Assembly: GCF_964063345.1 (NCBI RefSeq)
Contig: NZ_OZ061318.1
Location: forward strand, 6,200,001 to 6,264,000
Reading direction: 5' to 3'
Origin: Pseudomonas lini
GTDB taxonomy: Bacteria; Pseudomonadota; Gammaproteobacteria; Pseudomonadales; Pseudomonadaceae
DNA length: 64,000 nucleotides
This document shows, piece by piece, positions 10,189-28,081 of the stretch (position 1 is its first letter; each line of letters opens with the position of its first letter). Below the pieces are notes generated by a model. The model ran no database searches. It saw only the letters and a program-made list of their open reading frames with translations, and was not told the origin of the DNA. The position numbers and the translations under genes are program-made.

Positions 10189-11244
10189 TCAGAGCTGTAC
10201 CCGTCGCAGTCTGCCGCTCAACGGGACGACGTTGTTGTCTGGCGTGGGCAGTGGCCGGCCGGCTAATCCCATGCCTTCGCTCACCAGTACCGTATCCTCC
10301 ACCAGGCACAGATTGGAAGGGGTATCCAGGCCGCGGGCGAGCACGGCGACTTGGGCGGTTTGCAGGTTGCAGCGCAGCAGTCGCCCGGTGAAACGGGTAA
10401 AGCCGCCATGCAGCGGTTCGCCGTTCCAGTCCGGCGGCAAGGGTTGCTGCAGGCGGTCGCAGAGCTCCAGGACCAGCACATTGCCCTGCGGACACAGTGC
10501 TAGTCCGGTGGGCAGTTGCAGGCCATGAATCAGCACCTCGATCTGCCCGCTGTCGGGCCAGACCCGAATCACTCGGCCTGCCTTATCGGCAAAGTCGATG
10601 CCCCTGCGCGTCGGGTCGCCCTGCAGCTCTCCGGAGAACAGGCTGATCAGCACGGCGTCTGTCGCCGGTTCGTACACCAGGGTCACGGGAACGGCTTCCT
10701 GGCCCTGGTCCAGTTCGGGCAACTGGACCAATACGCGCTCGCCTTGTTCGCCGGTGAATTCCACCAACTGATTGGTATCGGGTTTGACCGCCAGCCAGCT
10801 GCGGCGGGTCGGGTGATAACACAGCGCATTCAGATTGCCGCGGCTGTGGAACGCCGGCTCGGGCGGGGTGTATTGCAGGTCCAGCAGTTTGGAGCCCTCG
10901 ACGTAATCGGTCTGGCTGAGCAGGCAGCGCCCGTCACCACAGGCGATGTCCGACAAACCCATGATTTCATCGCGCAGCATGCGGGCCTGCATGTTCATCG
11001 AGCGAAAACCTTGCGCCAGTGTTTCGCGGGGCAGGTAGGCGCCGGGTGTGTGCGGATCCGGTCGCAGTCGACTGATGCGGCCGCTGAAGGGCTGGTCCGG
11101 CAGGCCTGAGCCGGCTTCAGTCAGCAGCAGGCTGCCATCGGCCTGCATACAAAGGCCCCGAGGGTTCAGCAGGCCCTCGGCGATGATCGTACTCGGGCGC
11201 AGGGTTTCGCTGGGTCGCGCCGGGATATAAAAGGGAACGGGCAT
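10189..11244 (-). CDS. NHL/SMP-30-like beta-propeller protein (ScyD/ScyE-like), last gene of the ebo-linked operon
   Basis: 351 residues. Repeated blades of the form GLxxPxGLxxxxDGxLLxxExG are visible: NPRGLCMQADGSLLLTEAGSG, LPTGLALCPQGNVLVLELCD and DTPSNLCLVEDTVLVSEGMG. This is the layout of six-bladed NHL or gluconolactonase-type propellers. Related propellers ScyD/E/F accompany scytonemin genes, where ebo genes are also needed. I see no signal peptide from the chosen start, so the compartment is unclear. ATG 11244 follows GGAGAGAGCCCTT; an ATG at 11259 is in frame but overlaps that site. It lies 34 bases after the VioB-like gene. Enzyme activity is not inferable. Confidence 0.6.
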   Translation of the reverse strand: MPVPFYIPARPSETLRPSTIIAEGLLNPRGLCMQADGSLLLTEAGSGLPDQPFSGRISRLRPDPHTPGAYLPRETLAQGFRSMNMQARMLRDEIMGLSDIACGDGRCLLSQTDYVEGSKLLDLQYTPPEPAFHSRGNLNALCYHPTRRSWLAVKPDTNQLVEFTGEQGERVLVQLPELDQGQEAVPVTLVYEPATDAVLISLFSGELQGDPTRRGIDFADKAGRVIRVWPDSGQIEVLIHGLQLPTGLALCPQGNVLVLELCDRLQQPLPPDWNGEPLHGGFTRFTGRLLRCNLQTAQVAVLARGLDTPSNLCLVEDTVLVSEGMGLAGRPLPTPDNNVVPLSGRLRRVQL

Positions 11245-11278
11245 AAGGGCTCTCTCCATGAACAAGGGATGGGCGCGG

Positions 11279-13090
11279 CTACTGCGGCGGCTGCCAAGGT
11301 TCACCGGTGAGATAGGCCCTCAGCAGTGCCCGCTGGCAGGGCGACATCGAGCGCACCACAGGCATGAACAGGGTGGTGCCTTTGTAGGCGTCCGAGGTTC
11401 GGGCGAGGATGGGGTTCTTGGCGCCCATGACCGCATCGGGCTGATTGAGCGGGATGTAGCGCGACATGGCGGGGAAGGCCAGATAGTGAAAACGCAGGAC
11501 GTTCGGGTACATCAGCTCCCAGGTGATGGTAGTGCCCGCGGGGATGCCGAAGTCGGTCTGTGCGTATTTGCGAAAGCTGGTGAAGTAGCCACTGCTTGGA
11601 AGGCCGTTGGCCGTGCAGGTCAGGGCGACAAAACCTGCTTGGGCGGCGCTACCCGGTTTGACGGCGACGGGGACACTGATTTCGAGCTGGCCGGTGTTGA
11701 CGGTCAGCGAGGCAGGAAAATCGAGGAAGTCCCAGTATTGCGGCTCATCGTACACAGCAGGCGCAGCGGCCTGCAGGTCGATTTCGGTGGCGCTGGGGAC
11801 CGGGCCGCCCAGATACCTCACCTGCAGGGTGATCGTCAGACCATTGGGGTAGTCCTCCAGATAAACGTTGCGCTGATTGGCATAGATTCGATAGGTCGAT
11901 TCGGTTGCTTTAAGCGAGGTTCCAGCGACCTTGTTGGGTGCGTTGATTGCCAGCGCAGTGGTCCGCGCCGCCTGCAGTTTGTCGGCGGTCAGGGGCAGGT
12001 CGACGATGCCGCCATACACGTAGTAGTCGAGCAAAAAGCGGCTGGTCGGCTCCAGGGTGAACAGTGTGGTGGTGCCTGCGCTGAAGGTGACGGGGCCGTA
12101 GTTCGCGTTGGGTCCGATAGGGCTGGTGATGTCGTCCCTGACGGCCCTGAAGGTTTCCTTCGGAATGACGTTCACCATGTCGATGCTCAGGTAACCGTTG
12201 TTTTCGCCCAGATCGGCATAGCCGGCATTCCCCGTACCCTGGTTGACCAGTTGCCGGCCCGACTGGCAGTTCAGCGGCTCGTCGGCGAAGGCCGGGGCCA
12301 GTGTACCGATGACCCGGCCGATGCTCGGGTTGGGCGTGTACCTGCCGGCGGCATAATCGGCGTCCAGTTGTTCGGTGGTCATCGTGGGGCACATTTCGAA
12401 CATGACGAAACGCAGGACGATGCCTGTCGCACCCGGCGCCTGGATGATCGAGCGCAGGCCACTGCTGTTCTGGTTCCAGCTGACGATGCTGCTCAAAGGG
12501 AAGGTCAGTTGAAACGTACCGCTGGCGTGGAAAGATCCTGGCGCATCCATTTTCGCGGGCAACAGCACACGTCCCGCCACGTCGAAACTGCTGCACACGG
12601 TATTACTGCGAATCAGCAATTGGATGTCGCTGTTACCGCCAATTTGCAGGCCGCCGACGAATATCTGGGTGGTCGTTGAGGAGGTAGGGTCCAGGTCGAC
12701 CATCATCGGGCCGGAAACCGGCCCCTGTCCGGTCACCGGGTCCACCGAGCCGAGCAGATAGACCGGCTGACCCACCATATCGCCGGTGGTGTTGATGCTG
12801 CCCGCAATACCCTGAGAACTGATCAAGGCGTTCTGCATGTCGACGACATGCTGCCCGTAGTGATTCCAGCCGCCGGCGGTGTAGTAGTCGCCGTCGGGCG
12901 CGTTGATCATGTTGTTCAACTGATCGTCGCTGTAAGACTGGGCACCCGGTGCCAGGGTCGAGGTGGTCAGATCGAAGAGCGGCCATTCCTCATTGCCTTC
13001 GTAAGGGATGGTAGGAGAGTTGTTCGGCAGGCTGACGTCCGTGCGGATGCCGCCCCAGAAATTCAGCCGTGGTCCATTGAGAATGCTCAT
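11279..13090 (-). CDS. Protein related to the N-terminal half of VioB/RebD chromopyrrolate synthase (paralog 1)
   Basis: 603 residues, no signal peptide. It opens MSILNGPRLNFWGGIRTD, close to the VioB opening (MSILDFPRIHFRGWAR). Other shared points are GGWNHYGQHVVDMQNA, GIVLRFVMFEMCP, and the end: AMSRYIPLNQPDAVMGA followed by MPVVRSMSPCQRALLRAYL, which matches the VioB YPFMSDK...MPSTRELSAPKARLFLKYL region. The ferritin-like C-terminal half of VioB is absent. VioB, RebD and StaD couple two indole-pyruvate imines; whether this shorter form does any such chemistry is unknown. It lies 3 bases after its CXXCH partner gene. Its paralog is at 15410. The homology is from my memory of VioB and needs a profile search. 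Confidence 0.65.
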   Translation of the reverse strand: MSILNGPRLNFWGGIRTDVSLPNNSPTIPYEGNEEWPLFDLTTSTLAPGAQSYSDDQLNNMINAPDGDYYTAGGWNHYGQHVVDMQNALISSQGIAGSINTTGDMVGQPVYLLGSVDPVTGQGPVSGPMMVDLDPTSSTTTQIFVGGLQIGGNSDIQLLIRSNTVCSSFDVAGRVLLPAKMDAPGSFHASGTFQLTFPLSSIVSWNQNSSGLRSIIQAPGATGIVLRFVMFEMCPTMTTEQLDADYAAGRYTPNPSIGRVIGTLAPAFADEPLNCQSGRQLVNQGTGNAGYADLGENNGYLSIDMVNVIPKETFRAVRDDITSPIGPNANYGPVTFSAGTTTLFTLEPTSRFLLDYYVYGGIVDLPLTADKLQAARTTALAINAPNKVAGTSLKATESTYRIYANQRNVYLEDYPNGLTITLQVRYLGGPVPSATEIDLQAAAPAVYDEPQYWDFLDFPASLTVNTGQLEISVPVAVKPGSAAQAGFVALTCTANGLPSSGYFTSFRKYAQTDFGIPAGTTITWELMYPNVLRFHYLAFPAMSRYIPLNQPDAVMGAKNPILARTSDAYKGTTLFMPVVRSMSPCQRALLRAYLTGEPWQPPQ

Positions 13091-13093
13091 GAT

Positions 13094-14398
13094 CTATTCC
13101 TCGTCCTTGGTGGTTTTGCCGACAGGCGCATTGGCGAATTTGAACAGGTAGGAGTAATCGGACTTGTAGGGGCTCTTGACCGGTGTCGCCATGGAGTGGC
13201 AATTCATGCAGCTGCTGTTGGGCTGGATGTAGCTCTCCATGGTCACGTTGGCCGACAGGGCCGGCGTCGGCTGCCCCAGTGGATTGCTGGGGTTGTCCGG
13301 CATCAGCGGGCGCTGGGTGGTGATGAGCTGGTAGTACTTCAGCACGCTTCTTTGCAGGTCCGGGTCGCTGCGGTATTGGGTGTTGACTCCGTTGGTGACC
13401 TCGGCAATCGGGGTGACCCGGTTCAGCGGGTTCGGGGTCTGGAACGTGGTGCCGGGTTTGGGCACGCAGACCAGATGCGCGCCCTGCGTCTGCCAGTCGC
13501 ACGGTGACTGGTTGAGGCTGGCAGCGGGGGCGGCGGGGTTGAAGTAGGAATAGGCCGTGCCGGATGTCGGCTGGTCGACCCACTTGTCGTTCACCAGCGC
13601 CTTGGCCGGAACGTTATCGATGTGCTCGAAGGTTGACCAGATCCACTGGGGATAACCGTTCGCCTTGGTGATGATGTGCAGGCCCACCAAACCCAGGTAA
13701 GCCTCGGTGACACCGGTGCGCTGGCCTTGGTCGTTGAACGTGGCCACGCGCGCGAGCATGGTCAGGTAGTGACTGGCGTTGTCAGCGGTCGTGAGGATGC
13801 GCCAGCTCGATTTGACCTCGATGACCCCATAGGGAAAGTTGATGTTGTTGGCTTTGGAAACGACATTAGCGTTATAGAAACTATTGGTGACGATGTAGTT
13901 GTAAGAGGTCTCGTTGGCCGAGATGTCGTAGTAGGTCGGGTTGCCGGCCTGGTCGATCAGCCAGCCGCCGACGGCCTGGTCGACAGCATTCACCTGAGAG
14001 CTGTTCTTCAGTGCGGCGATGTTGATGATACCCAGGCTTTTTGCGGTCTGCGGGGTATTCCACGGGCCAGGGTTGGCCCCTTGCGGCAGAAAGATTTCTT
14101 CCACGGTCTTGTAGGTCTGCCAGACGGTATAGCCGGGATCCCCAGGTTGTTTATTGCAGTCGGGATCACCTCGCTGCCCGTCCTGCGCGGGCCAGTTCAA
14201 GGCGATGAACATCTGCCAGCTGTACTGATCGAACTGGTCCTGACTGGCCGAGGCGGCTGGCGCGGTGCTGGGAGGCTGGCAGTTCAGGCTGGTGGCCTGC
14301 GTCGACGGCATGGCCTGTTCCCGGGGCTGCTCCAGGGCTTGGGCCGGCAGACTGGCCAGAACGAGTAACACCATGGTGAGACGGAGTGAAGTTTTCAT
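13094..14398 (-). CDS. Exported single-CXXCH (cytochrome c-like) protein, paralog 1
   Basis: 434 residues. Signal peptide MKTSLRLTMVLLVLASLPAQA. The N-terminal mature part has DQYSWQMFIALNWPA, equivalent to LAWNWFVCLNQPA in the paralog at 17813. The central part contains VIEVKSSWRILT and EAYLGLVGLHIITKANGYPQWIWSTFEHIDN (positions about 195-275), also shared. One heme c motif, CMNCH, is at about residues 397-401. Export and heme attachment in the periplasm are inferred. A single CXXCH near the C-terminus of a long unrecognised domain suggests an oxidoreductase or electron-transfer partner. Its gene is directly followed by a VioB-like gene, repeating the pairing seen at 17813/15410. Confidence 0.65.
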   Translation of the reverse strand: MKTSLRLTMVLLVLASLPAQALEQPREQAMPSTQATSLNCQPPSTAPAASASQDQFDQYSWQMFIALNWPAQDGQRGDPDCNKQPGDPGYTVWQTYKTVEEIFLPQGANPGPWNTPQTAKSLGIINIAALKNSSQVNAVDQAVGGWLIDQAGNPTYYDISANETSYNYIVTNSFYNANVVSKANNINFPYGVIEVKSSWRILTTADNASHYLTMLARVATFNDQGQRTGVTEAYLGLVGLHIITKANGYPQWIWSTFEHIDNVPAKALVNDKWVDQPTSGTAYSYFNPAAPAASLNQSPCDWQTQGAHLVCVPKPGTTFQTPNPLNRVTPIAEVTNGVNTQYRSDPDLQRSVLKYYQLITTQRPLMPDNPSNPLGQPTPALSANVTMESYIQPNSSCMNCHSMATPVKSPYKSDYSYLFKFANAPVGKTTKDEE

Positions 14399-14417
14399 GG
14401 CGATCCTTCGTCATTGG

Positions 14418-15341
14418 TCAGGGTTTGCGTTGCATGAGTTTGTCCCACTGCGCTCGCTTGCCATTACCCAATGAGGGCGGCGGATCGAACAGTTGGCACT
14501 GCGGCGGATTCGCCGGGCACATCGCGGCCACCTGCGCCCAGGTCTGGGCCGGGTCCGGTTTGGCGATGCGAAAGTTGGTGTAGTTCTGGCTGACGATGGG
14601 CGCATTGGCGACGCTGGTGTCACCGGAAAAAAAGAACGACTGGGGATGCCGATAGGGCGGTTGCCCTGACAGTTGTTTGAAAAAGGCGTAGCCGAACAGG
14701 ATCGGACCTTGCGGTGACTCGAGGTCCAGGGCGTAGGCCTGCACACTGCCGTCGAGGTTCTTGCTGCGCTCGGCGCTGTAGGGCAGGTGCTGGATGAAGT
14801 CCTGTCGCGGCGGATGATTCATTGGCGAGAACATGCAACAGGCAGGCATGTCCTTGGGGCGGTCTTGCGGGTAAGTCAGGAAGTACGCCTTGTTGCCCAG
14901 GGACACGAAGGAGCAGGTGTAGCTGTTGTTCTTGATCGGGAAGATCGGCAGACAGTATTTCTCGTAGTGCTCCATCATGGCGCCGAAGCCGTCGCCATCC
15001 GGCGGGATGTAGGCGGCGTCGTAATAGCTGGTACCGCGGGAGACGGTGTAGTCCGCCGGGGTGAGGGTCGTGGGTGGATTGCTGTAGGGCGGCGGGTTTT
15101 TTTCGTAGTTGTGCATCACCCGGTACATGGTCCAGTCGCTGATCCAGAACGCCGGGAAGAACGGATCGGAAGGGTCGCTCGGTGCTCGAGTGGCGATGCA
15201 GTTGCCATTCTTTTCATTGCACCCCTCGGTGTTGTGCACCCCCATGGTGAAGTAGACGGCGCCGCTGTCCGCCTGGGCGAATAGAGCTGGGCTGAGCAGC
15301 AGGGTCAGTAGCAACAATCGGTTCAAGATGCTGGTTTTCAT
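14418..15341 (-). CDS. Cys-rich exported protein of unknown function
   Basis: 307 residues starting at ATG 15341, preceded by AGGAGTGCCCT. Signal peptide MKTSILNRLLLLTLLLSPALFAQA. The mature part contains many cysteines that could form disulfides: EGCNEKNGNCIA, KYCLPIFPI, YTCSFVSLG, MPACCMFSPMNHPP, AAMCPANPPQCQLF. The C-terminus GNGKRAQWDKLMQRKP resembles the end of the CXXCH protein at 17813 (SLKRAQWQR). I do not recognise the fold. It sits between the two VioB-like/CXXCH gene pairs and is probably co-transcribed with them, so a role in the same periplasmic chemistry is likely but unproven. Confidence 0.6.
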   Translation of the reverse strand: MKTSILNRLLLLTLLLSPALFAQADSGAVYFTMGVHNTEGCNEKNGNCIATRAPSDPSDPFFPAFWISDWTMYRVMHNYEKNPPPYSNPPTTLTPADYTVSRGTSYYDAAYIPPDGDGFGAMMEHYEKYCLPIFPIKNNSYTCSFVSLGNKAYFLTYPQDRPKDMPACCMFSPMNHPPRQDFIQHLPYSAERSKNLDGSVQAYALDLESPQGPILFGYAFFKQLSGQPPYRHPQSFFFSGDTSVANAPIVSQNYTNFRIAKPDPAQTWAQVAAMCPANPPQCQLFDPPPSLGNGKRAQWDKLMQRKP

Positions 15342-15409
15342 AGGGCACTCCTGTGAAGTGCCGGGTGACAGGCTCGTCACCCGGTGGTCCTGAGTGAAGC
15401 GTTGTTGTT

Positions 15410-17800
15410 TTAGCCTTGTTCGTAGTCGCTCATGCTGAGAGGGACGGGGGGGTAATTGCGTTTCACCAGGGACTGTGCCCAGAGCTCCAGCACAGCACGT
15501 CGGCTTTGTGACATGTCGCGGGTGATGGGCATGGCGAGGGTGCTTTCCTCCTGGTACTCCTTGCTGATCAACACAATCAGTTGGTCGATGGCGCCTTCGA
15601 TTCGCTCCAGGGAATTGAGTGGCATGTATTTGCTCATGATCGGGTACAGGTAATAGAAGGGCTGCAGGATGCGTGGGTAGATGAAGCTTTCCCAGATCAG
15701 GACCCGGGCCTCGGTTTTCGAGTAGATTTTGTTCCACTCATTGACGAAGTCCTCCTGCAGTTTCGGTTCCAGCGGCAGCACACGCAAAGGCGCCAGGAAG
15801 TCGGTATAGGCGTCGGTATAGTTGAAACTGAAAGGGATCTCGGGAGGCTGTCCACCCTCCTGCACGAAGAAGCGCAGGGTCGGAAAGCCAGGAGCCCGAC
15901 CTTTGACGGTCAGTCGTGCAATGCCCTTGGCGTCAGTCTGTATCTGCGTCACGCAATAGTTCACGGTGCTGTTCTGGAGATCCTGCAGTTTGCCTTCCAT
16001 GGCGACGGGATTACTGAAGCCCAGGCTGGGGGCCAGGGAGACCGAGGCGGGTGTCGACAGGTATTGTTGATAGGTGACAGGGATTGGCACCTCGGCTGGG
16101 GCCTCGGCGTGCAGCGCCATGAGCCGACGGCCACTGCCCGTGCTTGCCTGGCTGTGTGCTCTGGGGGTATCGATAAATTGCGGCAGATTGGATTTGTTGT
16201 TCTGGCGGTTCAACGGATAGTCGTAGAACAACGTGAAGTCGGCTTTGTTACTGAACGCCAGGTAGTAGTTGCTGGTACTTAGCATGAAGGCGTTGTTGTA
16301 CTCCGCCACCCAGAGCACGGTGCCGGCCGGAGCCGGAAGGCCGTCGTATTGCACCATGATCTGCAGGGTTCTGCTGTCGCCGACATCGATGAAACTGGCG
16401 CTTTCGACAACCTCGGCGGTCCACATCTGCTGGGTGGCGGCTTGTACCGGTGTTGTGCCTTGCAGTTGCAATTCCAGCGACCCGGTTTGCAGCTTTTTCC
16501 GGGCGCCGGGGCTGAGCGTCAAATCCAGGATGCCGGAGCGTTTGTCGAAGGCTGCCTGTCGATACTGTTCGAAGCCGAAACTGGCCAAGGGGCTGAATTG
16601 GCCAGCGTCGTTTATCCCCAGCACGTAATCGCCTGCCTGAAATTTTTCCGCCACCGGAATGTCCGCCTTGCTGTCGAGCGGATAGAACGGGAAGGCGGTC
16701 GAGAGATCCAGCGACAGGGTATCGCTGTCGGGTTGGACCTGGGTCGAGATCACTCCCAGCTGTATTTCCACACCAGGAGGAAGGGGGGTATCGCCCGGCG
16801 TTTTTTGGTAGATGCTGATGGCGGAGGCGGGGACCAGGCGCCGTCCCGCCGGCGCGGTCGGGAACTCATCCTCAAACCACAAACCCAGGGTGCCGGCGGT
16901 GCGGCTGTAGGCCGGGTTGAAGAAAATATCGGCAACGTTATCCAGGCCTTTTTGATACATCGCCTGCACGTTCTTCTGTATCTCAGGGTCTGTGGAGTGG
17001 GTGTTGATGGGGGGGTAGTTGTTGAAAATGCCGTTTTTGTCGTAGCAGGTCAGGTAGGTGGAGAACCTGAACATCAGCCCCTTGGCGTGCTGTTGCTCCA
17101 TCTGTTCCTGGAGGTTTTTCAGCAGTTGCGAGTTGCCGATCACCCACTGCAAGTTCTCTTTGGAAAAGCAGGTCTGCCAGGTCGTGGTGACATAGATCAG
17201 GCCACCCAACGCCCCCCAGTTGAAGTTCAGGAAACGATCGAGCATCCGGTGTTGACGCTTGAGCGTCACGCCGCACTGATCGTCACCCAGCACCAGCTTG
17301 TCGAAGTACAGCGCGGTGAAGGTGTTCTGCCAGGGGCTGACGTCGACGAAACGGGCGGGGGTGGGATTCGTGCTGCCAAGGGGGCTGCCGAACAGTTGAT
17401 AACCCTTGTCGATCAGCGCGTCCTGGTCGACGTAACCACCGCCAGGAAGCTCGCCGCCAATGATCACGGAGCGGGTCTGGTCATAGCTGACAGTACCGCA
17501 GGCGTTGTCACCGAACAGGTCCCATTCGGCGGGAATCATCGGGTAGTTACCCGGATTGGCATTACCCGGTACTTGCTGGGCATAGGCCGGTACGTCGCTT
17601 AGCGGCAAGGGCGCGATGGTCCAGGGCATCAAGGTGCTGGCGGCATTCTCGGGATCGATGCCGTATTCAGCGAGAAACCGCCAGTTCATCTGCATCTTGA
17701 CCGCGTCGTAGAGCGGAAGCACATCGTTGTTGTTGGCCGTCGGCGGGTTCCAGAACATATGGCCGTTGAGGTAGATACGGGGGAAATTCAATACGCTCAT
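15410..17800 (-). CDS. Protein related to the N-terminal half of VioB/RebD chromopyrrolate synthase (paralog 2, long)
   Basis: 796 residues, no signal peptide. It opens MSVLNFPRIYLNGHMFWNPP, then TANNND, very near the VioB start. Mid-protein GLMFRFSTYLTCYDKNG and AGTLGLWFEDEFPTAPAGRRL correspond to VioB GLTVQYALFNM and VGLWRRGELASYPAGRLL. Near the C-terminus FYYLYPIMSKYMPLNSLERI and MPITRDMSQSRRAVLELWA match the VioB segment just before its ferritin-like domain, which is missing here. Relative to paralog 1 it has an extra ~200 residues in the middle. Reaction unknown. It is 12 bases after the CXXCH gene at 17813, suggesting co-translation as a pair. Confidence 0.68.
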   Translation of the reverse strand: MSVLNFPRIYLNGHMFWNPPTANNNDVLPLYDAVKMQMNWRFLAEYGIDPENAASTLMPWTIAPLPLSDVPAYAQQVPGNANPGNYPMIPAEWDLFGDNACGTVSYDQTRSVIIGGELPGGGYVDQDALIDKGYQLFGSPLGSTNPTPARFVDVSPWQNTFTALYFDKLVLGDDQCGVTLKRQHRMLDRFLNFNWGALGGLIYVTTTWQTCFSKENLQWVIGNSQLLKNLQEQMEQQHAKGLMFRFSTYLTCYDKNGIFNNYPPINTHSTDPEIQKNVQAMYQKGLDNVADIFFNPAYSRTAGTLGLWFEDEFPTAPAGRRLVPASAISIYQKTPGDTPLPPGVEIQLGVISTQVQPDSDTLSLDLSTAFPFYPLDSKADIPVAEKFQAGDYVLGINDAGQFSPLASFGFEQYRQAAFDKRSGILDLTLSPGARKKLQTGSLELQLQGTTPVQAATQQMWTAEVVESASFIDVGDSRTLQIMVQYDGLPAPAGTVLWVAEYNNAFMLSTSNYYLAFSNKADFTLFYDYPLNRQNNKSNLPQFIDTPRAHSQASTGSGRRLMALHAEAPAEVPIPVTYQQYLSTPASVSLAPSLGFSNPVAMEGKLQDLQNSTVNYCVTQIQTDAKGIARLTVKGRAPGFPTLRFFVQEGGQPPEIPFSFNYTDAYTDFLAPLRVLPLEPKLQEDFVNEWNKIYSKTEARVLIWESFIYPRILQPFYYLYPIMSKYMPLNSLERIEGAIDQLIVLISKEYQEESTLAMPITRDMSQSRRAVLELWAQSLVKRNYPPVPLSMSDYEQG

Positions 17801-17812
17801 GTCATGCTCTCC

Positions 17813-18952
17813 TTAGCGTTGCCACTGGGCGCGTTTGAGCGACCAGACAAAGTCCAGTTTGTTGTAACCGGTGAAGGCCGAGTCCGGCAGAGGGGCGGTG
17901 GGATAGACGATGCCGCCCTGTTCTTTCATGGCGAAGTTGAAATAGCCCTTTTGCGCCGAATACGCGGCGGTGTCGTGACAGGCAAAGCACGATGACTGGC
18001 TCTGGAAGGCTGACTCCAGCTGAGAGTTGGCCAGCAAGGTCGGGTTGGTCCTGGACTGGACGGCGATCAGTTCGTACTGCGACAACCCGGGATATTGGGC
18101 CTGGAATTGGCTATTGACGGGCTTGGCCGCGGCTATCGGCCCGGTGCTGTTGGTTATCGGGGTGGGCGGAATGGCGTTGGTGACGGTGTACTTGCTGTTG
18201 TTGATGTTTTCGAAAGTGGTCCAGACCCAGCCGGGATTCAGCTTGTTGATGATGTGCAAGCCGCTCAGCGCTGCATAGCCGACCTGGTAGTTGCCGTCTT
18301 GCAGGTAATAGGCCTGGGCGATGTAGTAACCGTCGTTTTCCAGTGTCTGTTTGTAGGTCGCGTCGGAGCCGATCCACAACCAGGCGGACTTCAATTCCCA
18401 GGCGATGGACGGGAATTCCAGGTTGCTGGTCAAGGCGGCTTGACCATTCATGTTGTAGACCTGGCGTTGAACGACGTAATCGAAAGTGCCTTCGCCCATC
18501 AGCAGCTGAAAGCGCACGGGTTTGCCTGTTTCCGACGCCGGCACCGCACCGCCCATTTCCAGAATCATGCCATCGACCTGTTGCGTGGCATTGAGGCTAT
18601 GGAAGATTCGGGAGAGGTCCATTCCCTGCGCCTTGGCTTGCGTAAGCACCGCGTCCGGGGGCGGCACGGGCGTGCCATAAGGGGCGGGTTTGGCGCCATT
18701 GATCAGGAAGACCTGGTCGGAGGGCTTCATGGATTCCCACTCGCGGTTGGGGCTCCCCGCGGCGGCAGGCTGGTTCAAACAGACGAACCAGTTCCAGGCC
18801 AGGGTTTCGGGACTCTGGACAAACGCTGTCCGGGTTTTGTTGACGTCTCCTCCAAATTGCAGAAAGTTGCTGCAGTCGAAGGTGTTCGGGCTCTGAGCCT
18901 GAGCCAAACCGGCCAGGGCACTCAGAACTGTTATAGAAATGGCTCGCCGCAT
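17813..18952 (-). CDS. Exported single-CXXCH (cytochrome c-like) protein, paralog 2
   Basis: 379 residues. Signal peptide MRRAISITVLSALAGLAQAQ. Conserved with the 13094 paralog: LAWNWFVCLNQPAAAGSP, IAWELKSAWLWIG, and VGYAALSGLHIINKLNPGWVWTTFENINN. One heme c motif, CFACH, is at about residues 322-326, and the protein ends SLKRAQWQR. The start ATG 18952 follows AAGGAGCTTCC, and the gene overlaps the 3' end of eboF by 22 bases, indicating translational coupling to the ebo genes. Likely periplasmic; function not assigned. Confidence 0.65.
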   Translation of the reverse strand: MRRAISITVLSALAGLAQAQSPNTFDCSNFLQFGGDVNKTRTAFVQSPETLAWNWFVCLNQPAAAGSPNREWESMKPSDQVFLINGAKPAPYGTPVPPPDAVLTQAKAQGMDLSRIFHSLNATQQVDGMILEMGGAVPASETGKPVRFQLLMGEGTFDYVVQRQVYNMNGQAALTSNLEFPSIAWELKSAWLWIGSDATYKQTLENDGYYIAQAYYLQDGNYQVGYAALSGLHIINKLNPGWVWTTFENINNSKYTVTNAIPPTPITNSTGPIAAAKPVNSQFQAQYPGLSQYELIAVQSRTNPTLLANSQLESAFQSQSSCFACHDTAAYSAQKGYFNFAMKEQGGIVYPTAPLPDSAFTGYNKLDFVWSLKRAQWQR

Positions 18953-20376
18953 GGAAGCTCCTTGGCATTGGCCGGGTCGGTGTGTGGGTGCCCCAGGAAG
19001 TGCTCCAGGAGCAGTTGTTTCACCGCCGTGGCCGCAAGGTGCTGCGGTAACGGCAGATCGCAATTGGTGATGAGCAGCGGGCCGGTCTGCTCGCTGGTGG
19101 GCAGGCGGCCATGGCTGCCGTGGACTAGGCGGGTGTCCAGAGGAATCAGGTCCATGTAGTAGCGAAAGCCGAGCTTCTTCTGCAGCAGGCGGCGCACCAT
19201 TTTCAGTTTGGGGAAGCGAATCGCCGGGTCGATGAACAGCTCCAGCGGGTCGTAGCCGGGCTTGCGATGGATGTCCACGGTGCGGGCAAAGTCGGGTGCC
19301 TGGCGATCGTCGAACCAGTAGTAGTAATCGAACCAGTAACCCGGCGCGGCCACGGTAACCAGTTCGCCGCTACGGGGATGATCCAGCTGCCAGGCCCGTT
19401 GTTCGGCTTTATCCAGCACCTGCTCGATGCCGGGCTGGCGCTGCAACAGCGCTTTGACGCGAGGGATGTCTTGCGCCTGCTTCACGTAAATATGCGCGAT
19501 CTGATGATCGGCCACGGCAAACGCAGCGCTGGCGCCAGGGTCGAGCAACTCCCAGGTCAGCGATTGGCGCACCTGCAACAAGCCTTCCGAGCGCAACAGC
19601 CGGTTGATGGAGACCGATTGCTGTACCGCTTCGATGCCGTATTCGGACAGCAGCATCACCGCCGCGCCTTGTGCCTGGGCAAAGTCCAGCAGACGACCCA
19701 CTTCACTGTCGATGGCCCGCACCTCGTCGGTAATCGACGGATGATCGGGACCCAAACGCTGCAGGCTGTAGTCGAGATGGGGCAGGTAGACCAATTGCAG
19801 GTCGGGTCGATTGAGCGTGAATTCGGCGATGGCGCAGTCGACGATCCAGCGGCTCGACGCGATGCCGGCTGCTGGGCCCCAGAAACTCGGGAAGGGGAAT
19901 TCTCCGATCTGTTGCTCAATACGCTCGTGCAACGAGGCCGGTGACGAATACAGACCAAACATTTTGCGGCCATCGGCCGGGTAGTGAGGGCGTGGGGTAA
20001 TGGCTGCATCCACGTCCGCATACATGTTGTACCACCAGAACAGCTGGCTGCAGCGAAACCCCGGGATCTCACGCTTGAGCTGCTGCCAGACCTTTTCCCC
20101 CTGGATCAATGCATTGGGTTGCAGCCAGAAACGCACTTCAGCCTGGTCGCGAAAATACCAGCCATTGCCGACGATGCCGTGTTCCGACGGCGGCAGACCG
20201 GTGAGGATCGAGGCCTGCACCGTAGAAGTGACGGCCGGAAACACCGGTTGCAGGCTGGCCATTTTTGCCGTTTTCAACAGGGCATTGATGTGAGGCGTCG
20301 CCGCCCCCAGCAGCGCTGGTGTCAGCCCTACCACGTTGATCAGCAGCAGCGGTTGACGCGGGTGGTCAGAAGGCAT
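18931..20376 (-). CDS. eboF: EboF-like type I phosphodiesterase / nucleotide pyrophosphatase
   Basis: About 481 residues of the alkaline-phosphatase superfamily. The N-terminus reads PLLLINVVGLTPALLG, then PAVTSTVQASILTGLPPSEHGIVGNGW. The nucleophile is probably the Thr of AVTST and the GLxPxxHGIxGNGW motif is typical. Later motifs are VYLPHLDYSLQRLGPDHP (metal Asp and His) and VMLLSEYGIEAV, with HRKPGYDP for the final metal histidine. It would hydrolyse a phosphodiester or phosphate of an unknown ebo intermediate. The start at 20376 gives an 11-base overlap with eboE. The ebo set is known to be needed for scytonemin export in cyanobacteria and is the EDB locus of P. fluorescens. Confidence 0.75.
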   Translation of the reverse strand: MPSDHPRQPLLLINVVGLTPALLGAATPHINALLKTAKMASLQPVFPAVTSTVQASILTGLPPSEHGIVGNGWYFRDQAEVRFWLQPNALIQGEKVWQQLKREIPGFRCSQLFWWYNMYADVDAAITPRPHYPADGRKMFGLYSSPASLHERIEQQIGEFPFPSFWGPAAGIASSRWIVDCAIAEFTLNRPDLQLVYLPHLDYSLQRLGPDHPSITDEVRAIDSEVGRLLDFAQAQGAAVMLLSEYGIEAVQQSVSINRLLRSEGLLQVRQSLTWELLDPGASAAFAVADHQIAHIYVKQAQDIPRVKALLQRQPGIEQVLDKAEQRAWQLDHPRSGELVTVAAPGYWFDYYYWFDDRQAPDFARTVDIHRKPGYDPLELFIDPAIRFPKLKMVRRLLQKKLGFRYYMDLIPLDTRLVHGSHGRLPTSEQTGPLLITNCDLPLPQHLAATAVKQLLLEHFLGHPHTDPANAKELPCGEPFL

Positions 20377-21598
20377 CGGCGTACGCCTCCCGCGTTTGGG
20401 GTTGCAGCAATCGCCGCTGCCGTAGTTGATCTTCGACCCAGTGCAGTTCAGCGGCGATCCCGTGGAGTTGGGCGTGCTCGGAAGTGGGCCGCAGTTGGGC
20501 GGGCAAGACGCCCCAGCTGTAGGTTTCCACTTCCAGTACCGGACGAAAATCCGCATGGTCTGCCAGGAAGTCGAAGGTCTGCGACAGGGCAATCTGACTG
20601 CCGCTAAGTTCGGGCAGCAGCAAGTGTTCGCTGAACAGTGGAATGTGGAAATGAATTCGCAGTTCGGGGTAGTGCCCCGGGCGCTTCGCGCAATCGTCGA
20701 GGGCTGCCGGAAGGTCCGCCCAGGCCAATAACCGCTCCTGCGCATCGCGGGCTTTCACTTGATGCAGGTAGGTGGTTTCGGCAAAGTCGCCCAAGGTCTT
20801 GAGTACGTGTTCGCGCCGGTTGTCGTCTTCAGCGGGCAGGTGGCAAATCAGGGCATTGGACAACTGAATCTTGCTGACGGGCACCCGAGCCTGACGCAAC
20901 CTTTCCAGCGATTGATAGCAGTCTTCGAACATCACTGCCTGGTGGCAGACATCGAAACACAGCGCCAAGTATTCATGGTGCGGGTCCGTGGCTTGGTAGC
21001 GGTGGAAGAAAGCGATGGCCTGGTCGGTATTTTCCAGCACGCAATCCGGCTCCATTTCCAGGCAGAACACGATTTTCTTGCCGGTCTTCAGATGCAGCTT
21101 GGCCAATGAGGCTGTGAGTTGGCGCAACTGATACTCGGCACGCTGCTGTAAGGCTGGGTTCCAGCTGGCGGCATAGCCCAGCGGCACGGTGGAAATCACG
21201 CCCTGGCGACAGTCCGGCGGCAGGGCCTGCGCGAGGATTCGGGCCAGATTCAGGCTGTACGCCAGCCGTTTCGGATCGGCCCAACTGGGTAGATAGACGT
21301 CGGCTTTCACCGCGCCCTGATGAAATTGGCCGTAGGGAAAGCCGTTAAGCGACGTCAGGCGTAGCCCGCTGCGTTGCAGCAGGCTCAGGAAGTCTGTGCG
21401 AGCCGACATCTGCTGTAGTTCGGCTGCGGCGAGGGCGCTGATCCACAGCCCACTGTCCTGTTCGTTCAGCCCGCGCAGGGTTCGCACGCCCTGAAAATGC
21501 TGTTCGATGGATGACCGTAGCCCGGCCAGGTCACGGGTCGGGTGCACATTGCTGCAATAACCGACCTGCGCGGCAGCCCAACCCGTGCCGGCACTCAT
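20366..21598 (-). CDS. eboE: EboE-like xylose-isomerase/AP-endonuclease-type TIM barrel protein
   Basis: About 410 residues. Starts MSAGTGWAAAQVGYCSNVHP, typical of EboE, whose N-terminal GYCTNVHP marks it. TIM-barrel strands carry metal-site residues: LTSLNGFPYG, KKIVFCLEMEPDCVLEN, LALCFDVCHQAV, KIQLSNAL, RIHFHIPLF and FRPVLEVETYSWGVLP. It is probably a metal-dependent isomerase or epimerase acting on a cyclitol or sugar intermediate; the reaction is unknown. Its ATG overlaps the eboB stop in ATGA, a coupling pattern repeated through this operon. Confidence 0.75.
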   Translation of the reverse strand: MSAGTGWAAAQVGYCSNVHPTRDLAGLRSSIEQHFQGVRTLRGLNEQDSGLWISALAAAELQQMSARTDFLSLLQRSGLRLTSLNGFPYGQFHQGAVKADVYLPSWADPKRLAYSLNLARILAQALPPDCRQGVISTVPLGYAASWNPALQQRAEYQLRQLTASLAKLHLKTGKKIVFCLEMEPDCVLENTDQAIAFFHRYQATDPHHEYLALCFDVCHQAVMFEDCYQSLERLRQARVPVSKIQLSNALICHLPAEDDNRREHVLKTLGDFAETTYLHQVKARDAQERLLAWADLPAALDDCAKRPGHYPELRIHFHIPLFSEHLLLPELSGSQIALSQTFDFLADHADFRPVLEVETYSWGVLPAQLRPTSEHAQLHGIAAELHWVEDQLRQRRLLQPQTREAYADAF

Positions 21599-22479
21599 TT
21601 GATCACCGGTTCCTGGCCCCGCAGGGCGGAGTTGTCCTGCCACTGCCGACGCTGGTCGATGGGCAGTGGGGTGCTGACCAGGGCTTTGTCCAGTTGGCCG
21701 CTCTGGGCAAAAAAGTCCACCGGGTTATGGAACAACACCTGTTCGACCTGGGCCTCGGTGAAGCCGGCAGCCAGCATCGCCTCACCCGTTTTTGGCACCT
21801 TGAGCGGGTCGCTGATCCCCCAGTCGGCGGCGCTGTTGACCACCATCTTCTCGGTGCCATATTCCTTCAACAGGGCGACCATGCGCTGTTCCGACATTTT
21901 AGTGTTGGGGTAGATCGAGTGGCCGCGCCAGCAGTCGCTGTCCAGCACCAGCGGCAGGGTCAGTTCGTTGAGGTGGTCGATGATCACCAGATGCTCGGCA
22001 ATCCCCACTTCGCGAATCACCGCCAGGGTGCGTTTGGTGCCACCTATCTTGTCGCGGTGAGGGGTGTGCACCAGCACCGGCAAATTGAATTGCTTGGCCA
22101 GTTCCAACTGAGCGGCGAGAAAGCGGTCCTCCTCGGGGGTGATGTCGTCGTAGCCGATTTCGCCCACCGCCACGACGCCGTCTTTCACCAGGTAGCGCGG
22201 CAATATCTCCAGCACTTCATTGGCCACCGAGAGGTCATTGGCCTCCTTGGGGTTGAGGCCGATGGTGCAGAAGTGATGGATGCCGAACATGCTGGCGCGA
22301 AAGCGCTCCCAGCCCAGCAGGGTATCGAAGTAGTCGATGAAACTGCCGACACTGGTCCTGGCCTGGCCCTGCCAGAAGGCCGGCTCGATCACTCCGGTGA
22401 TGCCGGCAGCGGCCATGTTCTGGTAGTCATCGGTGGTACGGCTGACCATATGAATATGCGGGTCGAAGTACTTGAGCAT
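21595..22479 (-). CDS. eboB: EboB-like TatD-family metal-dependent hydrolase
   Basis: 294 residues. MLKYFDPHIHMVSRTTDDY carries the HxH metal motif of TatD-type amidohydrolases. Further ligands are the Glu of VVAVGEIGYDDITPEEDRF, His in NLPVLVHTPHRDK, His in LVIIDHLNE, and Asp in MVVNSAADWGISDP. It is the second-position ebo hydrolase; the substrate is unknown. It lies 42 bases after eboA and overlaps eboE by 4 bases. Confidence 0.78.
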   Translation of the reverse strand: MLKYFDPHIHMVSRTTDDYQNMAAAGITGVIEPAFWQGQARTSVGSFIDYFDTLLGWERFRASMFGIHHFCTIGLNPKEANDLSVANEVLEILPRYLVKDGVVAVGEIGYDDITPEEDRFLAAQLELAKQFNLPVLVHTPHRDKIGGTKRTLAVIREVGIAEHLVIIDHLNELTLPLVLDSDCWRGHSIYPNTKMSEQRMVALLKEYGTEKMVVNSAADWGISDPLKVPKTGEAMLAAGFTEAQVEQVLFHNPVDFFAQSGQLDKALVSTPLPIDQRRQWQDNSALRGQEPVIK

Positions 22480-22521
22480 GGTGAATCCTCGTCAAGGGGA
22501 GGGAAGCCGTTGAGCATCAGT

Positions 22522-23289
22522 TCAGAGAGATGCGGTCAGGTGTTCACGCCATTCCGGCGGCAAGCGTTGCTGCTGACTCAGGCCGACCAGACGCTGGCGT
22601 TGCGCCGGACTGAGCAGGTCGAAGGCAATCACTCGGGGTAGCCCGGCAGACACCGTTCGTTCGGCAGCGAGCTGTTCGTCCAGCAGGTCGAGGGCCAGCT
22701 GGTTGAGGGTGACGCTGTGTCGTTGCTTCAGGCCAAGCAGGCGTCGTACGTCGAGCCCCATGCCCAGTGCCTTCAGCACCAGTTGATGGAAGGCCCGTTC
22801 GCTGTAATGACGCGACGGGTAGAGGGTGTCCAGGGCGAGGGCGGCAAACACCTGATTGTTGCTGGTACGCCCGGCCTGCAACGCCAGTTCGACGCAAAGC
22901 CCACGGCTATCGAGCCAGTCGAGGGCTTTCAAGGTGGCGATCTTTTCCTGATCGTCGCCCCACAGAAACAGCTGGCGCAGCAAGGGCAATTGCCCGGCGA
23001 GGGGTTGTTGCTCCAGGACCTGAGACAGCAACAACGCCCGCGCCAGTTGGACATTGCTCCAGCCGCAATTGTTGGGCAGCGCATGCTCCTTGAGGCTGCG
23101 CTTACACTGGCTACTCAAGAGCGCAGCAGTGTTGGCGTCCGGGCGTTGCTCAAGCCGCTCCTGCGCCTGACGCCACCACTGCAGCTCGGCTTCATCGAGC
23201 TGCTGGGTGAGGGCCTGGCGTTGTTCGGCGAGGCAGTCGTGGCGCATTTCGAGGGCCGCCGATGGCGGCGCTGTGACGTCCATGTTCAT
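22522..23289 (-). CDS. eboA: EboA family protein
   Basis: About 255 residues from ATG 23289, which overlaps the eboC stop in ATGA; a second ATG lies at 23283. Mostly helical, with GWSNVQLARALLLSQVL, RQLFLWGDDQEKIATLKALD and NNQVFAALALDTLYPSRHYS. The last two fit the conserved part of EboA, a family without known biochemistry and without membrane segments or signal. It is identified by position in the ebo set and by these motifs. HEAT-like helical repeats suggest a protein-protein adaptor, which is inference. Confidence 0.7.
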   Translation of the reverse strand: MNMDVTAPPSAALEMRHDCLAEQRQALTQQLDEAELQWWRQAQERLEQRPDANTAALLSSQCKRSLKEHALPNNCGWSNVQLARALLLSQVLEQQPLAGQLPLLRQLFLWGDDQEKIATLKALDWLDSRGLCVELALQAGRTSNNQVFAALALDTLYPSRHYSERAFHQLVLKALGMGLDVRRLLGLKQRHSVTLNQLALDLLDEQLAAERTVSAGLPRVIAFDLLSPAQRQRLVGLSQQQRLPPEWREHLTASL

Positions 23290-24176
23290 GTCGGTTTGAT
23301 CCAGCGCTGGAAGTGTGGAAGCAGGAAAAACACCAAAACACATAACAGGCTGCCCAGTGGCTGGTTGGCCACCGCCAGCACCAGGGCATCGAACAACGGC
23401 AGGGCCGCCAGGCCAGCGCCGATAAAGGCACGGACCTGGCGTTGCTGTGGGTTGGCCAGGTGGTGCCAGTAGTGCCAGCCCAGCCAGCCCAGCCAGAGCA
23501 ACAGCACCGGCCAAAACCAGAGGTTGTCGGAATAGATCGCCAGGGCCAGCGGGCTCAGCATCAGGATCAGCGGGAGGCGGCTGAGCAATTGATTGCGGTG
23601 TTCCTGGCGGGCCAGGTAGGTCAGGCCACTGATGTAGACGCCCAGCAAAATGGCGCAGAGCCAGATCGGCTCCGGTGGCACCGCCAGGCTGGCCGCCGCA
23701 GTGAGGTAGAGCGCTGAGCGGCAGGCGCCCATCAACCAGACGCTGTGGGCGTATTTCTTGTGCAGCAGGTTGTAGCCGAGGATGCAGCCCACCAGCAGGG
23801 TGGCGCTGCCCAGCAACCAGTGCGGTTGGTCGATCAGTCGGCTCAGGCCCAGTACCGACGCCGCGGCCAGCACCAGCAGCAGCCCAGTGGCCAGGCCCAC
23901 TTGCTGTCGACTGACCAGACCCAAAGTGATAGGGCGGGGATTATGGTGCTGTTGGTCCCAGTCGGCGTCCAGCAGGTCGTTCAACAACATGCCGGCCAGA
24001 TACAACAGCGACAGTGCAGCCAGCAGCAGGATCCACACCAGCGACGACGGTGGCGCCAGGGCTCCGGCGCTACTGGCCAGCAGGGCGGCGGCCAGAGTGT
24101 TGGTCCACACGGTGGGCAGGTTGGACACCCGGCCCAGGGTCATCCAGGTCTTCAGGTTCAGCGGAGTCTGGCTCAT
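23286..24176 (-). CDS. eboC: EboC-like UbiA-family prenyltransferase
   Basis: 296 residues with about eight to nine membrane segments. The first prenyl-diphosphate motif is LLNDLLDADWDQQHHNPRPI (NDxxDxxxD). The early GRVSNLPTVWTNTLAAALL matches the substrate-binding region of UbiA-type enzymes. The second Asp-rich motif is weak (YISGLTYLARQEHR), as is common in EboC. It would attach an isoprenoid tail to an aromatic or cyclic acceptor in the inner membrane. It overlaps eboD and eboA by 4 bases on each side. Confidence 0.8.
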   Translation of the reverse strand: MSQTPLNLKTWMTLGRVSNLPTVWTNTLAAALLASSAGALAPPSSLVWILLLAALSLLYLAGMLLNDLLDADWDQQHHNPRPITLGLVSRQQVGLATGLLLVLAAASVLGLSRLIDQPHWLLGSATLLVGCILGYNLLHKKYAHSVWLMGACRSALYLTAAASLAVPPEPIWLCAILLGVYISGLTYLARQEHRNQLLSRLPLILMLSPLALAIYSDNLWFWPVLLLWLGWLGWHYWHHLANPQQRQVRAFIGAGLAALPLFDALVLAVANQPLGSLLCVLVFFLLPHFQRWIKPT

Positions 24177-26047
24177 TGCGCGCAGCCCTCGCCCAAGGTG
24201 AGCGCCGGGCCGATGTAGGTGGACAGTCGCTGCAACGCTTGCTCCATTCGCGCGGCATCGATTTCATGCAGGTCCACCGACTCGCCGATCCGGCTGAGCA
24301 TGGGGATGGAGAGTTGCCCGCCCAAGTGCTGGCGGAATTCCTCCAGCCCGAGCAACACCTGTGAGCGTCCCTGTGCATCTTTCAAGGTCAGTTCCGGTGG
24401 GCACAAGCTAAAGCCGAGCTTGAGCAGCAGAGACAGAACACGTTCGGTGTCGGCATCGCTCAACAGTCCGAGGGCATTGGCATAGAGTCCATCCAGGGCC
24501 ATGCCCACGGCCACTGCTTCGCCATGGCGCAACCGGTGCCGGCTGAGATTTTCCAGTTTGTGCGCGGCCCAGTGCCCGTAATCCAGTGGCCGTCCGTTAC
24601 CGCGTTCGAAGGGGTCGCCAGCACCGGTGATGTGCGCCAGGTGCAGTTCGGCGCAACGGCGGATGGCATAGCGGCTGGCCGGGTGATCAAAGTGGGCGAG
24701 GGCGTCGGCCTGTTGTTCCATCCACTCGAAAAACGCCTGGTCCTTGATCAGCGCCACCTTGACCGCCTCGGCCAGCCCGGCGATCTGGTCGCGTCGGGTC
24801 AGGCTGGTCAGCAGCTGGAAGTCGTTGATCACCGCAGTGGCGGGGTAGAAGGCCCCCAGCAAGTTTTTCTGGCCGAACGCATTGATGCCGTTTTTCACAC
24901 CGATGCCGGCATCGTTCTGGGCCAGTACCGTGCTCGGAATACGGATCAGGCGAATGCCGCGATGGAAGGTGGCGCAGGCGTAGCCCACCGCATCCAGCAC
25001 CGCGCCCCCCCCCAGGGCCAGGACATAGCAATGCCGGTCCAGTCCATGTTGCAGCATGTCGGTGTACAGCTGCTGCAACACCTGTGAATCCTTGCTCAGT
25101 TCGCCGGCCGGAACCGCAATCGGCGCGGCCTGCAAATGCAGATCCGCCGTATGGGCGGCAAAGTAGGCATCGATCTGTTCCAGCAGTTGTGGGGCGCTGC
25201 GCAACAGTTGTTCATCGGCGAACACCAGCACCGTCACCGGGCCTCTGTGCTGAGCGGTGAGCTGGCGGTGCAGACAAGGATTGGACGGCTCGAACAGGTG
25301 ATCGGTGAACACCACCGGGTAGTCGTAACTGACCTCGAATCGGCCATGCAGTGGTTGCTCCGCGCCGTGCCTGCGCAAGGTCTTGAACAGGCTGTACCCG
25401 GCGATAAACAGCCCAGGCAACCCCATGCTGGCGAGAAGGGTCACCAGCAACGCGTTCTGCTCGATGAGGAAGGTGCCGATGGCGCTGTAGGCCAGTGCCA
25501 GGCCGGCATTGGCCAGGGTGGTGACCAGTAGAAACGCGCGCAATGGATAACGTTGCATGCCGGCGGCCACCACCGAGGTTTCCGCCAATACCGGTACGCC
25601 ACGCAGGCAGATCAACGACAGCGTGCTCAGCCGATACGCCAGCTGTCCCGGTTGGCGTTGATGCAGGCCCAAGCGGCCGGACAGCAGACGAAAATAGCCG
25701 GCCCCTAGCGCATAACCCAGTCCCGCACCCAGGCACAGGCCAATGAAAATCACCAGGTAGCCGCCGAGACTGCCCAGCATGGCCACGGCCAGCAGCGCCA
25801 CCATGCTCGAAGGTACCGGCAGCACCACGTCCAGCGCCAGCAGGGCAATCAGTAGCAGCGCCAGATTGAGTTTCTGGGACGGTGTCGAGGGCAGGTACAG
25901 GTTGAGATGGGTCAGGAAGTCCTGAATCTGTTGTTCGAACAACAGGAAGCTGGCGATCACCAGGCCCGAGAAGCAAAGCAATGAAATCCAGAAATGTCCG
26001 GCAGGCCCTCTTTTCGAGAGCGCACGATACCCACGGCTGCGCTTCAT
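24173..26047 (-). CDS. eboD: EboD-like sugar phosphate cyclase fused to an N-terminal DedA/VTT membrane domain
   Basis: 624 residues. Residues about 20-230 hold five to six membrane segments with the DedA/TVP38 look (LDVVLPVPSSMVALLAVAML, ICLRGVPVLAETSVVAAGM). Residues about 240-620 are a 3-dehydroquinate-synthase-like cyclase: VLALGGGAVLDAVGYACATF, RIPSTVLAQNDAGIGVKNG, AGLAEAVKVALIKD and LRHGEAVAVGMALDG (metal Glu and His). Ebo cyclases are usually soluble, so the fusion would tether the enzyme to the membrane next to EboC. ATG 26047 follows AGAGGGA; the in-frame TTG at 26050 is rejected. First gene of the long operon. Confidence 0.8.
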   Translation of the reverse strand: MKRSRGYRALSKRGPAGHFWISLLCFSGLVIASFLLFEQQIQDFLTHLNLYLPSTPSQKLNLALLLIALLALDVVLPVPSSMVALLAVAMLGSLGGYLVIFIGLCLGAGLGYALGAGYFRLLSGRLGLHQRQPGQLAYRLSTLSLICLRGVPVLAETSVVAAGMQRYPLRAFLLVTTLANAGLALAYSAIGTFLIEQNALLVTLLASMGLPGLFIAGYSLFKTLRRHGAEQPLHGRFEVSYDYPVVFTDHLFEPSNPCLHRQLTAQHRGPVTVLVFADEQLLRSAPQLLEQIDAYFAAHTADLHLQAAPIAVPAGELSKDSQVLQQLYTDMLQHGLDRHCYVLALGGGAVLDAVGYACATFHRGIRLIRIPSTVLAQNDAGIGVKNGINAFGQKNLLGAFYPATAVINDFQLLTSLTRRDQIAGLAEAVKVALIKDQAFFEWMEQQADALAHFDHPASRYAIRRCAELHLAHITGAGDPFERGNGRPLDYGHWAAHKLENLSRHRLRHGEAVAVGMALDGLYANALGLLSDADTERVLSLLLKLGFSLCPPELTLKDAQGRSQVLLGLEEFRQHLGGQLSIPMLSRIGESVDLHEIDAARMEQALQRLSTYIGPALTLGEGCAQ

Positions 26048-26062
26048 CAAGCATCCCTCTTG
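26048..26062 (-). promoter_or_regulatory. Possible RsmA/CsrA-type hairpin over the eboD ribosome binding site
   Basis: On the minus strand CAAG-AGGGATG-CTTG forms a 4-bp stem with a GGGA-containing loop, ending at the eboD ATG. The loop contains the Shine-Dalgarno bases. Rsm proteins bind A(N)GGA in such loops in Pseudomonas secondary-metabolite genes. The stem is short, so this is tentative. Confidence 0.35.
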
Positions 26063-27124: not shown

Positions 27125-27165
27125 GCCGCCGCTTTTCTCATGAACAGCCATCTCAGGAGTACCCC

Positions 27166-28071: not shown

Positions 28072-28081
28072 GGAACGCCCA

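Follow-up and report, generated by a model that had tools for sequence, protein, structure and literature searches.

A twelve-gene operon of Pseudomonas lini, which is most likely an EDB-type cluster of the genus, joins a full set of ebo genes to a second module in which a cytochrome-like protein with one CXXCH motif (cyt) is paired with a protein resembling the N-terminal half of VioB (vio). It lies in a 64,000-nucleotide stretch of a closed 6.58-Mb genome (contig NZ_OZ061318.1, positions 6,200,001 to 6,264,000; the window hereafter), where open reading frame (ORF) and family searches place twelve ORFs on the minus strand from 26047 down to 10189, in the order VTT-eboD fusion, eboC, eboA, eboB, eboE, eboF, cyt1, vio1, cysr, cyt2, vio2 and propeller (Table 1); cyt, vio, cysr and prop are names coined in this analysis. 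With a probability of about 0.4 we read the whole as a system that makes and flips a lipid carrier and, coupled to the cytochrome, oxidises a deterrent which stays with the cell. The link between EDB and ebo was known; the VTT fusion, the cyt-vio pairing with the exchange of vio and GMC oxidoreductase, and the GGA hairpins of the leader are added here.

The EDB ('edible') cluster was reportedly named in 2013 (Burlinson) in P. fluorescens NZI7 and linked to deterring worms. EDB is described as containing a full ebo cluster with some other ORFs having signal peptides; the strain becomes edible when its eboA, eboD or eboE homologue is disrupted by insertion, genes for a capsular polysaccharide (CPS) permease are located immediately upstream and the factor was not found in the supernatant (PMC6282210). 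The assignment of the operon to this type was made against the description in that citing paper, and gene-by-gene identity with the NZI7 cluster, compared by description only, is to be expected with little doubt. A sequence-only reading of the stretch had called the operon an undescribed system, a label which does not fit a cluster named in 2013 whose ebo genes and other exported ORFs were noted by Klicki et al. in 2018; the EDB link and the ebo-type export or lipid chemistry which that reading also proposed are supported.

Conservation of the operon and distribution of its modules

In a sample of 199 genomes drawn from the genus Pseudomonas, EboE, vio1 and cyt1 were each found in 25, and the genome set was identical for all three; cyt1 orthologs were called at over 480 bits, and 19 further genomes gave only weak cyt matches of about 41 bits or below. 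About 20 kb around vio1 was compared in the 24 other vio1-bearing genomes. Order and strand were conserved in 24/24, which together with the ORFs and family matches bears out the one-strand, twelve-gene arrangement first proposed from sequence. All twelve genes are present in 17 of these loci and cysr-cyt2-vio2 is missing in seven (L022, L032, L040-L044), so that the common core consists of nine genes. At the junction of the ebo and non-ebo parts eboF and cyt1 overlap by 22-31 nucleotides (nt), and cyt1 and vio1 are spaced by 4-12 nt; as both features are kept in 24/24 loci, co-transcription and translational coupling of the two halves are very probable. The sequence-only reading had counted six overlapping junctions and five gaps of 3 to 68 bases; the range stands, and the count becomes five overlaps and six gaps, because orthologs put the propeller start at the ATG corresponding to 11244 and not at the GTG 11304.

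The nearest named relatives of vio1 are from Pseudomonas. The vio1 of L023 has one in-frame TAA within the aligned frame (open frame 790 amino acids) and was left out of the profile. In Pseudomonas sp. FEN the main cluster (L032) has an eboC reduced to a remnant by internal deletion and a VTT-less eboD, and a piece with eboC-cysr-cyt2-vio2 (L052) stands at the contig start; this arrangement on apparently the same contig may mean that the cluster has been split, or may be an artefact of assembly.

In wider samples, EboE was found in 15/369 genomes of the class and 3/398 of the phylum, with the window counted in both. The DNA of the 16 non-Pseudomonas EboE loci (L128-L143, several on short contigs) showed no cyt, vio or VTT, and a single propeller match of 17 bits in L132. 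The expectation that ebo genes of related genomes would be accompanied by the downstream genes holds within Pseudomonas, where all 25 EboE genomes have cyt1 and vio1 (seven of the 24 compared being without cysr-cyt2-vio2), and fails in the 13 of the 16 loci where eboD is in view (some on short contigs), none of which has cyt or vio. Because of this difference, 13/13 without against 25/25 with both, ebo is, as far as sequence comparison goes, a reusable module which is here joined to a second module.

The second module was followed by a cyt2-profile scan of genome contigs, which confirmed 311 relatives; the best 80 were kept, some of which belong to the same genomes as the 24 Pseudomonas loci, so the two counts overlap. 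Among the best 57 loci (L045-L101) of these 80, vio adjoins cyt in 54, and the three exceptions are all from Shewanella (L093 and L095, with none in 10 kb downstream, and L092, whose contig ends right after cyt). The combination of ebo, cyt and vio recurs in Shewanella, Rheinheimera, Marinobacterium, a metagenome-assembled genome of Kangiellaceae and Nitrospirillum. Adjacent cyt and vio with no ebo visible were found in Sphingomonadales (L089), Wenyingzhuangia (L099) and Gemmatimonadetes (L101), each with about 10 kb on either side, and in Verrucomicrobiales (L097) on a 7.3-kb contig; three incomplete contigs (L072, L074, L087) were left out of the judgement of ebo presence or absence.

The Shewanella loci L092, L093 and L095 carry a reduced cluster of VTT-EboD, EboA, cysr and cyt, with EboB, C, E and F not in view, and their assemblies also carry a fuller ebo locus (L045-L047). 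A second, divergent vio copy stands beside the main pair in L045-L047 and in L048 (Nitrospirillum), and Shewanella has a second cyt as well; these extra copies point to repeated duplication of the cyt-vio pairs.

The cyt and vio proteins and their partners

The two CXXCH proteins noticed from the sequence alone are real: the paralogs cyt1 and cyt2 have signal-like N-termini and exactly one CXXCH each, as do 24/24 orthologs of cyt1 and 17/17 of cyt2, and the N-terminus is hydrophobic above a simple threshold in 19/24 and 17/17 respectively. The motif would bind heme. Neither cyt1 nor cyt2 matched any Pfam domain, those of known cytochromes included, up to E 0.1, and the structure model of cyt was too poor for a fold search.

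The neighbours of other cyt relatives suggest what the protein may do. Beside those of L102-L124 no vio neighbour was detected; in 15 of these 23 loci cyt, a protein of about 165 amino acids and a GMC oxidoreductase stand in a row on the same strand (the GMC assignment is Pfam-confirmed for L108 and made by tblastn in the others), and this small protein with GMC occurs in 0/81 of the loci L021-L101. In the remaining eight loci cyt has other neighbours, which, where examined, were a CAP-domain, hydrolase, DUF6807 or cytochrome c protein. Most simply, the cytochrome-like protein would serve varied catalytic partners, vio being one; we place vio as a putative catalytic subunit because GMC occupies that position beside other cyt relatives.

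The likeness of vio to VioB is genuine and limited in extent. The two proteins of the window match TIGR04492 (VioB/RebD) with E 7e-7 and 4e-5 (scores, in ascending order, 21.5 and 27.4 bits, cut-off 1250), and relatives align, with E down to 2e-19, to the N-terminal ~590 of its 1003 positions; the divergent vio copy in L045 gave no match. The ferritin-like half is the catalytic part of VioB. Its domain PF12902 is absent from both vio proteins and none was found in the genome, a search in which 1/14 control genomes gave a match, so that imine coupling is unsupported. Matches to VioA in the genome were weak and partial, at about 26 bits. In L099 (Wenyingzhuangia heitensis) a flavin amine oxidase weakly similar to VioA (8342-9400) lies directly upstream of cyt-vio. 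Modelling of vio2 with AlphaFold on an alignment of 61 sequences reached a predicted local distance difference test (pLDDT) score of 92.

The VTT-EboD fusion, the leader and the remaining genes

The first gene, which had been read as eboD, does encode a dehydroquinate synthase (DHQS)-like EboD, though not EboD alone, being fused to an N-terminal VTT domain (PF09335, 40 bits, cut-off 33.9). The fusion occurs in the window, in 22/24 other Pseudomonas loci, in L058 and L088, and beside cyt in L092, L093 and L095, and EboD is unfused in L022, L032 and L048. The eboD of L022 and L032 starts with a few fusion-like residues, the remainder being missing, which suggests secondary loss of VTT. In L089 and L101 a separate VTT gene (PF09335 confirmed) directly follows vio and is the only ebo-type gene seen; eboD matches in these two loci proved to be their VTT genes. 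VTT was seen in 0/12 scorable cytochrome-free ebo loci, scorable meaning that eboD is not truncated by the end of the contig; L137, whose eboD begins right at such an end, and L141-L143, with no eboD visible, were left out of this count, and L134 was retained though its eboD is split over two frames. VTT appears to associate with cyt-vio rather than with ebo, although not as a strict rule, and the fusion may be a transporter supplied from inside the cluster.

DedA proteins are reported to be undecaprenyl-phosphate (C55-P) flippases (PMC12893004, PMC11474028). The ebo genes are needed for export of the scytonemin precursor, and in the model of Klicki et al. they make a sugar-lipid carrier which is moved by a capsule ABC permease (PMC6282210); the terms DedA, VTT and SNARE occur in neither the main text of that paper nor that of PMC5133447. 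A UbiA protein of an ebo cluster farnesylates quinolines in vitro, e.g. 8-hydroxyquinoline-2-carboxylic acid (PMC9235831), and EboC of the window retains the NxxxDxxxD motif.

The leader of eboD contains two GGA hairpins of the Rsm type. By one fixed rule two sites were found in 18/23 leaders and at least one in 23/23 (L022 and L032, whose eboD has no full-length match, are outside the 23), while a pair of sites, one of them close to the ribosome-binding site, was found in 38/4600 dinucleotide shuffles and at 1/52 other ORF starts in the window, these controls being mechanical ORFs of 250 amino acids or more in six frames and not all of them genes. In the hairpin alignment 90.7% of cells pair, compared with 7-45% when it is slid. 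EDB is under GacS control by a mechanism given as unknown, and strain PA23 is without EDB homologues (PMC4406715).

All of eboA-F are present. The EboE and EboA domains pass their cut-offs and EboC reaches 85 bits, under the NCBIfam cut-off of 250; EboB, EboD and EboF were assigned by Pfam/NCBIfam class and position, as no model carries those names. The propeller is under the cut-off of NF033206 (E 5e-17, 62 of 80 bits), and its orthologs have a hydrophobic N-terminus above the threshold in 0/24, an export signal being a feature of the ScyD/ScyE propellers. The operon is flanked on one side by a gamma-aminobutyric acid (GABA) permease and a TonB receptor, and on the other by a divergent, catabolic-looking operon led by a GntR gene (26411-30009, plus strand), whose GntR/FCD regulator, NAD-binding dehydrogenase, SBD_N/NBD_C kinase and class II aldolase resemble a sugar-acid catabolic operon.

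Table 1. Genes and leader elements of the operon, listed from the leader downwards (aa, amino acids).
Feature	Position in window	Strand	Remarks
Leader hairpin 1, CTGA-CACGGAA-TCAG	26073..26087	-	candidate RsmA/E site
Leader hairpin 2, ATCAAG-AGGGATG-CTTGAT	26046..26064	-	GGA loop covering ribosome-binding site and start codon
VTT (DedA-type)-EboD fusion	24173..26047	-	624 aa; VTT with ~5 hydrophobic segments, residues 16-218; DHQS-like domain ~223-613
EboC, UbiA-like prenyltransferase	23286..24176	-	NxxxDxxxD motif present in 23/23 orthologs
EboA	22522..23289	-	NF035938 E 6e-39, over cut-off
EboB, TatD-like metal-dependent hydrolase	21595..22479	-	by Pfam/NCBIfam class and position
EboE, TIM-barrel protein	20366..21598	-	NF035939 E 1e-121, 406 bits, cut-off 250
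EboF, type I phosphodiesterase/nucleotide pyrophosphatase-like	18931..20376	-	PF01663 E 5e-62
cyt1	17813..18952	-	379 aa; signal-peptide-like N-terminus; single C-terminal CXXCH
vio1, VioB N-half-like	15410..17800	-	796 aa; without signal-like N-terminus
cysr, Cys-rich	14418..15341	-	307 aa, 8 Cys; signal-like N-terminus
cyt2, cyt1 paralog (27-30% identity)	13094..14398	-	434 aa; single CXXCH
vio2, VioB N-half-like, vio1 paralog (~24%)	11279..13090	-	603 aa; predicted-model pLDDT 92
ScyD/E-like NHL propeller	10189..11244	-	without signal-like N-terminus

Proposed mechanism and comparison with known systems

We infer every chemical step proposed for this operon. In the preferred reading the product of the ebo enzymes would be a lipid carrier, prenylated and of cyclitol type, or a carrier-linked metabolite: EboD would cyclise a sugar phosphate and EboC would prenylate, and the VTT/DedA domain on EboD would flip the product over the inner membrane or recycle it. 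A two-component redox step would fall to the cyt-vio pairs, in which the exported single-heme protein accepts electrons and the VioB-N-like protein takes the position held by a GMC dehydrogenase beside other members of the same cytochrome family. The product would remain cell-associated and deter grazers, and Gac/Rsm would turn the operon on at translation.

Several observations weigh against this reading. A signal-like N-terminus was found by a simple hydrophobicity rule in 0/24 vio1 and 0/17 vio2 proteins, although they would have to meet an exported cytochrome; none of the Cys and His residues of vio is kept in all sequences, and the vio2 model found consistent look-alikes in the PDB only for an Ig-like stretch, with no enzyme matched. 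GMC is missing from 8/23 of the cyt loci without vio, cyt stands without vio in L093 and L095 of Shewanella, with 10 kb downstream covered, and most of the ebo loci seen outside Pseudomonas are without cyt-vio. A search for VTT elsewhere in the L022 and L032 genomes found none, VTT was not seen in the examined DNA of L048 and L099 despite their cyt-vio, and its occurrence in 0/23 of the GMC-type or other cyt loci (L102-L124) speaks against a strict rule tying it to cyt-vio. Klicki et al. report that no lipid-linked scytonemin monomer was found (PMC6282210). No hairpin pair shows a double, compensatory change, and the observed scores were attained in each of 500 column shuffles; what speaks for the stems is only that their sequence is conserved.

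Among the other explanations, it is unlikely that vio and cyt form a surface-bound redox or structural pair, not small-molecule enzymes, which the ebo lipid anchors or exports. The Ig-like part of the vio2 model, the signal-like N-terminus of the Cys-rich protein, the failure to find the EDB factor in the supernatant and the existence of cyt-vio without visible ebo would all suit such a pair, but vio is without a signal-like N-terminus and the cyt family elsewhere often neighbours an oxidoreductase. Biosynthesis of the VioB/RebD type, with vio coupling amino-acid-derived imines to an indole-like scaffold and ebo exporting it as with the scytonemin monomer, is quite improbable. The similarity to TIGR04492 over the VioB N-half is significant, the propeller is ScyD/E-like with ebo linked to scytonemin, and L099 has its amine oxidase just upstream of cyt-vio; against these stand the missing ferritin-like half, an operon with no amino acid oxidase in a genome with weak, partial VioA matches, and the restriction of the amine oxidase to one of four ebo-free cyt-vio loci, and the tryptophan-imine coupling of the sequence-only reading is not supported. 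That two independent systems share the operon by chance of acquisition, cyt-vio doing an unrelated respiration-linked oxidation, agrees with the occurrence of each half without the other outside Pseudomonas and is made improbable by the 25/25 co-occurrence in the sampled genus genomes, the overlapping junction and the same combination in the five groups from Shewanella to Nitrospirillum.

Under the preferred reading, the VTT-EboD fusion is a concrete transporter candidate for the export of the ebo metabolite, and the exchange of vio and GMC beside one cytochrome-like family suggests what the N-terminal half of VioB might do. It is rather doubtful that this VioB fold is a new type of redox subunit which, paired with a dedicated single-heme protein, replaces the GMC dehydrogenase, that VTT-EboD is the missing ebo flippase and that together they complete an export-and-oxidation line for an anti-grazer metabolite. 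The comparison offers first clues to co-acting EDB parts, namely a flippase-like domain, a protein of heme type and one half of an enzyme from the violacein pathway. The literature search, whose coverage mostly excludes subscription papers, found among the papers listed no title or opening of an abstract joining ebo with VioB-like proteins.

With EDB of NZI7 the operon shares its genus, the full ebo cluster and additional ORFs whose products have signal-like N-termini. GacS control is described for EDB, and the leader here has Rsm-type hairpins that may serve such control; the CPS permease neighbours described for EDB were not seen in the window flanks examined. Like the ebo clusters of cyanobacteria, of Bacteroidetes and of the plastids of eustigmatophytes it has eboA-F, to which it adds the VTT fusion, cyt-vio, cysr and the propeller, unseen in 13 non-Pseudomonas loci of the class except for the propeller match in L132. 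Homology with VioB/RebD (TIGR04492) covers VioB positions 1 to ~586, whereas vio is without the ferritin-like half and scores 21-69 bits against the cut-off of 1250. Systems with a GMC oxidoreductase likewise encode a related single-CXXCH protein just upstream, but here a VioB-N-like protein replaces GMC and the small protein. The VTT domain PF09335 is shared with the DedA/UptA flippases, a likeness drawn from sequence, and in this operon it is fused to a DHQS-like domain of the sugar-phosphate-cyclase type.

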